From the NCBI RefSeq assembly GCF_002140175.1, contig NZ_NGMO01000001.1, positions 386,300 to 431,000 of the forward strand: DNA of 44,701 nt, in the 5' to 3' direction. The notes beneath the pieces are model-generated. The model saw only the letters and a list, made by a program, of their open reading frames with translations. It had not been told where the DNA came from and did no database searches. The DNA is from Candidatus Enterococcus wittei (GTDB taxonomy: Bacteria > Bacillota > Bacilli > Lactobacillales > Enterococcaceae). The position numbers were made by a program, and so were the translations under genes. Of this stretch, positions 35,585 through 36,222 are shown piece after piece. Numbering within the stretch: the stretch's first letter is position 1; every line of letters begins with the position of its first letter.

Positions 35585-35600
35585 TATAGTGTTGTTTCTT

Positions 35601-35684
35601 GCAGATGTGTTGGAATTGGCAGACAAGCATGATTGAGGGTCATGTGAGCATTCGCTCGTGTGGGTTCGAGTCCCATCATCTGCA
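35601..35684 (+). tRNA. tRNA-Leu (anticodon GAG)
   Basis: A perfect 7-bp acceptor stem GCAGATG/CATCTGC with discriminator A at 35684. The D-arm is TGGAATTGGCAGACA, as usual for leucine tRNAs. Anticodon stem CATGA/TCATG holds the loop TTGAGGG, anticodon GAG at 35635-35637. There is a long type-II variable arm (GAGC/GCTC) and the T-loop GGTTCGAGTCC. CCA is not encoded. It reads CUC/CUU codons and stands alone behind its own promoter. Confidence 0.97.
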
Positions 35685-35713
35685 TATTAAAAAAAGCCTA
35701 CAATAAGTACAGA

Positions 35714-35760
35714 AAAATAAGCTAAGTCTTTCGGGAGATGCGGAGGACTTAGCTTATTTT
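35714..35760. terminator. Bidirectional terminator after tRNA-Leu
   Basis: A 15-bp perfect stem, AAAATAAGCTAAGTC at 35714-35728 with 35746-35760, and a 17-nt loop. The stem's A/T ends give a T-run in both directions, so it can serve the tRNA and the convergent SOS-controlled gene. Confidence 0.8.
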
Positions 35761-35898: not shown

Positions 35899-36174
35899 TT
35901 ATTTCAATGATTGCTTTCTTGGATAACTACTGTTTTCAAATGCAAGGACAATTTTTGATTTTTCCATGATCGTATAGTCTTTGACTACAAACTGTTTTTT
36001 ATTATTGTAGTATCCTTTTACGAAAACTTTTGTTCCTTCATCTACTTCTGCAAAAAAATTTAAACTATGATTTGCAATCAAGCAATTTTCTCGTCCTAAA
36101 CTAAAGCGAATCAACGGTCTGGCACCTAGTTTTAATGTTCTGATTTTAGTAACGGTTCCATACCTTTTTTCCAT
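35899..36174 (-). CDS. Small SOS-controlled protein, possible OB fold, 91 aa
   Basis: Starts at 36174 behind GAGGTGA; the frame extends further but that part lies in the promoter. The product MEKRYGTVTKIRTLKLGARPL... is basic and alternates strand-like segments (GTVTKIRTL, PLIRFSLGREN, TKVFVKGYYNNKKQFVVKDYTIM) as in small OB-fold nucleic-acid binding proteins. This is fold guessing, not a family match. Its promoter has a LexA box between -35 and -10, so it should be induced by DNA damage. No other SOS gene is adjacent. Confidence 0.78.
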   Translation of the reverse strand: MEKRYGTVTKIRTLKLGARPLIRFSLGRENCLIANHSLNFFAEVDEGTKVFVKGYYNNKKQFVVKDYTIMEKSKIVLAFENSSYPRKQSLK

Positions 36175-36193
36175 CAGCCTCACCTCATCTACC

Positions 36194-36222
36194 ATTATAC
36201 GAACAAACGTTCTTATAATCAA
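36194..36222 (-). promoter_or_regulatory. SOS promoter with LexA (DinR) box
   Basis: On the minus strand TTGATT (36217-36222), a 17-bp spacer and TATAAT (36194-36199) form a strong promoter. The spacer contains AGAACGTTTGTTCG (GAAC-N4-GTTC at 36201-36212), the Gram-positive LexA box, placed to block RNA polymerase. Confidence 0.88.

Follow-up and report, generated by a model that had tools for sequence, protein, structure and literature searches.

A 91-residue gene with a LexA box within its promoter: a probable SOS-induced, SSB-type protein in Candidatus Enterococcus wittei

In Gram-positive bacteria, YolD has been proposed as the UmuD counterpart within a UvrX-YolD-RecA mutasome, the counterpart of Pol V (PMC6511836, PMC12926913). 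The accessible parts of these descriptions contain no subunit like the 91-aa protein analysed here, and the terms 'OB-fold' and 'Lactobacill' do not occur in the main text of either paper. Small OB-fold proteins that handle DNA have likewise been reported from Gram-positive mobile elements, namely PrgE of pCF10 and OrfL, OrfM and HelP of ICEs; as far as the available text goes, these are described as conjugation proteins, and we liken them to the 91-aa family by description only (PMC12614216, PMC11137577). Papers on LexA or the SOS response together with Enterococcus, Lactobacillales or the OB-fold, available as excerpts, yielded none on this protein family and no gene-by-gene chart of the SOS regulon of enterococci or lactobacilli. 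WP_002295437, DUF5960 and phrog_15227 were not mentioned in the literature searched.

We analysed a 44,701-nucleotide stretch of Candidatus Enterococcus wittei (the window; NZ_NGMO01000001.1, positions 386,300 to 431,000), in which the locus comprises the following features.

36217..36222, minus strand: -35 element TTGATT (promoter scan)
36201..36212, minus strand: candidate LexA operator (SOS box) GAACGTTTGTTC, exact match inside the promoter spacer
36194..36199, minus strand: -10 element TATAAT (promoter scan), with a spacer of 17 bp to the -35
36178..36186, minus strand: ribosome-binding site GAGGTGAGG, read from the sequence
35899..36174, minus strand: 91-aa basic, SSB-type OB-like protein with ATG at 36174 (ORF, profiles, pI)
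35714..35760, minus strand: probable intrinsic terminator, 15-bp hairpin followed by a T-run (-21.4 kcal/mol, z -4.68)
35600..35685: convergent tRNA-Leu, beyond the hairpin 35760-35714

The original prediction had named a minus-strand promoter TTGATT-17-TATAAT with the consensus SOS box in its spacer, and this arrangement was confirmed, the box being an exact GAACGTTTGTTC. The 91-aa protein is indeed the sole gene seen behind this promoter, being followed by the hairpin and then by the convergent tRNA-Leu; by the look of it, the gene is a one-gene unit. Judged from the position of the -10 element, the mRNA leader is probably about 13 nt long. The hairpin perhaps serves from both sides, including the convergent tRNA-Leu; its long loop was missed by a consensus terminator scan that accepts loops of 3-8 only. 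The listed alternative ORF of 107 aa starts with a TTG inside the -35 element. Choosing start codons by their proximity to the place of the window's ATG, we could align an ATG with this region in 79 of 84 family loci; four others have TTG and one has GTG.

As evidence by itself, the box was rejected. Allowing one mismatch, 15 sites were found in the window against 15.8 expected, and the exact box occurs at 24 places in the whole genome against 43 for a backwards control pattern. When the box was combined with a -10 element (up to one mismatch), the genome held five matches, two of which are the window site read on both strands, and the backwards control gave one. Since the box alone stands at chance level, the case for LexA control is carried by the conservation of box and -10 together.

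We followed this combination through 84 Enterococcaceae loci, consisting of the window, 79 genome regions, one phage and three plasmid records. These loci encode 78 distinct proteins and are thus not all independent; left out were L001, which is the window gene itself, L130, which gave no tblastn match, and about 22 further listed BLAST matches. The composite motif was defined, after a first look at these loci, as a box (up to one mismatch) with TATAAT (up to one mismatch) one base on. It was found upstream on the same strand within 2.6 kb in 82 of the 84 loci, within 600 bp in 72 and within 160 bp in 34. Across all 941 kb, the motif occurs 84 times on the same strand and three times on the opposite strand, and in 200 dinucleotide shuffles of the 160-bp windows it appeared in at most one locus, against 34 of 84 in the real sequences. 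Sixty-one of the 82 loci, the window among them, have a -35 element matching in four or more of six positions at a spacing of exactly 17 bp; control spacings yield such an element in 15 of 492 cases. Two loci escape the definition of the motif: in L087 a box with one mismatch lies 38 bp upstream, but its -10 is displaced by one base, and L111 has no box with a -10 in the 2.6 kb scanned upstream.

For more remote loci, we let the -10 follow the box at a distance of either one or two bases. Among viral contigs, 44 of 69 loci carry the motif (four hits on the opposite strand), and 22 of the other 25 have less than 600 bp of upstream sequence; the count is 69 rather than 70 because L168, for which no start was found, was dropped. 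From the matches listed in an order-wide profile search we hand-picked 40 distant loci; 23 carry the motif as well, in 19 cases no more than 160 bp upstream (one hit on the opposite strand). The 17 distant loci without it fall into a plasmid-copy clade (eight), a clade of one other family (seven) and two others, one of which, L247, has one-mismatch boxes but no fitting -10; outside the two motif-poor clades, 22 of 24 distant loci carry the motif. A second family member in the window's genome (C1:324895, L336:1471-1770, profile E 9.9e-6) has no box in the unmasked part of its surroundings, the locus being partly masked, and by eye belongs with the plasmid-copy clade, L263 being nearest. Because these 17 loci and this second copy lack the motif, the family is not bound to the SOS response alone.

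Boxes with one mismatch precede lexA and recA in the window's genome, and exact boxes precede two Y-family polymerase genes, which we take, by length and context, for dinB and a uvrX-like gene. Together with the conservation of the operator-promoter in the family, these boxes strongly support the LexA-controlled promoter of the original prediction. On these sequence grounds we regard LexA control of the 91-aa gene as nearly certain, and LexA would be expected to bind the operator and DNA damage to induce the gene.

The protein itself belongs to no significant family in Pfam or NCBIfam, and its weak Pfam matches (GOLD, Cpn10) were taken as noise. Searches against the PADLOC anti-phage defence models returned no family at E-values up to 1, sequence searches of the PDB no meaningful relative of the protein or its family. 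The earlier statement that no family could be named was therefore right; yet the family is spread through the order, prophages and plasmids. It is the same family as phrog_15227, a phage cluster to which no function has been assigned and which matches 36 of 42 members (best E 2.8e-24; window protein 5e-4). Identity with YolD was rejected (hhalign 0.5%), as was a C-terminal [YFLM]P..[KR] tail as a family hallmark, which occurs in 16 of 34 near-box loci and 11 of 48 others.

A link to single-stranded DNA-binding proteins (SSB, PF00436) emerged from distant relatives. The PF00436 model does not match the window protein itself, but it matches five of ten relatives that we picked from the 40 distant loci with an eye to SSB likeness (E 2.6e-5, 1.4e-4, 0.0068, 0.067 and 0.078), all below the cut-off of 26 bits (best score 24.6). 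It is the best or second-best match in all five, three of the matches cover only about the first 35 residues, and for L240 the uncharacterised DUF7497 outscores it (0.0011 versus 0.0068). When 30 genomes were searched with PF00436, two stretches in one genome (G126) overlapped family members, both again below the cut-off. In profile comparison (hhalign), a 60-sequence family profile aligned with 22 SSBs at 75.6% (E 2.4e-5) over 81 OB columns in register, and the OB part alone at 76.8%. By comparison, 60 column shuffles of the OB part reached at most 1.1%, the reversed profile 0.6% and three other small families from the same loci at most 0.6%. A profile of 42 mainly Enterococcaceae members reached only 11% against SSB and 21% against the OB part; with no SSB match for the window protein either, the link thus runs through the distant members.

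In contrast to SSB, the family is about 90 aa long, basic and LexA-boxed, and stays below the Pfam cut-off. The acidic C-terminal tip (DDDLPF), invariant or nearly so in the 22 SSBs, is found in none of the 84 family members, 83 of which have a pI above 8. The depositors of phage EG-TP1 report a structural match to 'SsDNA-binding protein' for gp32, which is this gene in a shortened model; the annotated start of gp32 (L047:6001-6270) apparently lies too far downstream, and the conserved one overlaps gp31. Judged from the profiles, the 91-aa protein probably has an SSB-type OB fold, and we think it reasonably likely to bind ssDNA. The basic charge and OB-like character claimed for it earlier have thus gained a profile link and family-wide support, and the nucleic-acid binding claimed with them would follow from the predicted fold.

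Neighbouring genes were counted on the same strand, 3 kb upstream and 1.5 kb downstream, in the 84 loci. Twenty-five of them have a YolD-like gene nearby, and in four of these the order is Y-family polymerase, YolD-like gene and 91-aa family gene. The YolD-like neighbours barely register in Pfam (one of eight, E 0.038); aligned with true YolD proteins by hhalign they reach 90.8% (87.9% for 16 members; at most 1.8% in 40 shuffles). Other recurrent neighbours are DUF5960 (15 loci), an unnamed 95-aa family (14) and DUF7694 (three), and 39 loci have none of these families. The likeness to the UvrX-YolD-RecA system consists of the LexA box and of these four units. In contrast, the 91-aa family is not homologous to YolD, and the genome of the window keeps the two loci apart: its uvrX-like and YolD-like genes form a pair elsewhere, behind an exact box of their own. 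Against a translesion reading count the many loci, a majority, without a polymerase gene near, and the window gene stands alone.

Starting from what we observed (promoter, operator and their conservation, the SSB profile link, the basic charge and the units with YolD-like and Y-family polymerase genes), we propose an SOS-induced, tip-less SSB-type OB protein that acts on damage-exposed ssDNA and helps UvrX/YolD translesion synthesis; taken as a whole, we hold this proposal to be about evenly poised between right and wrong. In the undamaged cell, LexA on the box between -35 and -10 would block RNA polymerase. RecA filaments on ssDNA would trigger LexA cleavage and thereby the synthesis of a short-leader mRNA and of the 91-aa basic protein, a putative OB domain of the SSB type, minimal, divergent and lacking the acidic tip. 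This protein may bind ssDNA gaps, or RecA/SSB-covered template, at stalled forks, and may there assist UvrX, the SOS polymerase, and its partner YolD in translesion synthesis. The repair accessory suggested in the original prediction fits the YolD-like/Y-family polymerase units; a role in translesion synthesis together with UvrX/YolD we put forward tentatively, as somewhat less than an even chance.

A bolder form, which we consider speculative and rather unlikely, is that the Lactobacillales own a damage-specific, tip-less SSB under LexA control that replaces ordinary SSB, or loads beside it, on gaps and thereby joins the UvrX-YolD-RecA mutasome as an additional component. Y-family polymerases would then work without the usual SSB interaction hub, and the protein would have been captured repeatedly by phages and plasmids. 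An unnamed family whose promoter incorporates a LexA box makes a strong candidate for an SOS effector not yet accounted for; should it serve UvrX/YolD as an SSB-type accessory, this would bear on the set of small subunits that the Gram-positive counterpart of Pol V requires.

The chief rival to this translesion accessory is a modulator of RecA or of the SOS response, a LexA-induced protein that would compete for ssDNA or bind the RecA filament and so damp or time the response; DinI, PsiB and RecX are modulators of this kind and serve as working analogues. A small, solo, LexA-boxed gene would suit such a task, and so would an SSB-like protein without the acidic tip, which could for that reason cover ssDNA without recruiting repair enzymes. 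A divergent cousin (for example WP_002295623.1; L253:4633-4893) is widespread on enterococcal plasmids (532 plasmid records, 370 of them typed conjugative), where an anti-SOS function would be useful. In four of five plasmids viewed, all similar and from E. faecium, it lies 0.4-0.7 kb behind an annotated ssb, which we also count in favour of the SSB-type accessory; the fifth has two annotated hypothetical proteins at this place. In its genome copies, L253 included, the box was searched for and is absent. We rate the modulator as unlikely, given that the Pfam and NCBIfam scans named none and that linkage to YolD-like and polymerase genes speaks for synthesis, not for shut-off.

Less likely still, in our estimate, is a gene that belongs first to mobile elements, protecting or processing their ssDNA upon SOS induction, with the chromosomal enterococcal copy as a domesticated remnant. 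Members were found on 70 viral contigs, two of which (L132, L133) carry copies nearly identical to the window gene's closest relatives, and in phage EG-TP1 and Latilactobacillus TMW phages, besides the plasmid records with the cousin. By BLAST, 70 of 105 Enterococcaceae genomes from 11 of 17 genera have relatives, with up to five matches per genome, and none was found in three of 15 genomes of the same genus. In addition, a tRNA-Leu adjoins the gene, and tRNA genes are common integration sites. On the other side, the window shares its aminotransferase and LysM flanks with five of the 11 other same-genus regions (L052-L062; two on small contigs keep one of these neighbours and four keep none), and copies from the genus group in a single supported clade (98/89). 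From these shared neighbours and the single clade, the window copy looks mostly inherited, with its operator kept, though it may have been mobile as well. The deep forks of the family tree are unsure, the alignment having 94 columns for 117 rows and the bootstrap being unsettled. One E. faecium record labelled plasmid (L048, NZ_CP092374.1) has both chromosomal neighbours and is possibly a chromosome fragment or a misassembly. Across the order, a profile search of 395 sampled genomes found relatives in at least 123 and in at least 37 of 80 genera. The window protein is 68% identical to WP_002295437.1, and its relatives would place the window in Enterococcus near E. faecium. With the window protein as single query, a contig scan returned one relative, 40% identical along some 50 residues and encoded in a MAG labelled Deltaproteobacteria.

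An RNA-binding role, in which a damage-induced OB protein would act on transcripts or the transcription machinery in the manner of a cold-shock protein, appears improbable. It draws on weak matches to tRNA_anti-codon (E 0.029 and 0.16), which for L247 outscore SSB (0.029 versus 0.078), and on tRNA_anti_2, which weakly matches three of 42 members (best 0.014). However, SSB beats tRNA_anti-codon in the other four SSB-matching relatives, and some loci neighbour DNA-repair or ssDNA genes. Finally, although small division inhibitors are frequent in SOS regulons, for example YneA in the accessible part of PMC13396833, a division inhibitor or checkpoint protein is very improbable here, given a basic protein with an SSB-type profile and, by eye, no hydrophobic segment or signal. 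None of our findings speaks for the division inhibitor or the regulator that the original prediction had offered besides a repair accessory.

Several further genes drew our attention during the analysis. The unnamed 95-aa family and DUF5960 stand beside the gene in some loci (L065:6185-6472; also L104 and L112) and are further candidate SOS genes. A second box with a -10 and zero mismatches in the window's genome (C1:832281; L266:1501-2067) precedes a 79-aa gene, behind which lies a gene that by eye resembles the DUF5960 relatives, much of the flank being masked. In the same genome, a 72-aa gene located a few hundred bases past lexA is preceded by two exact LexA boxes with a distance of 27 bp between them (L270:2407-2445).
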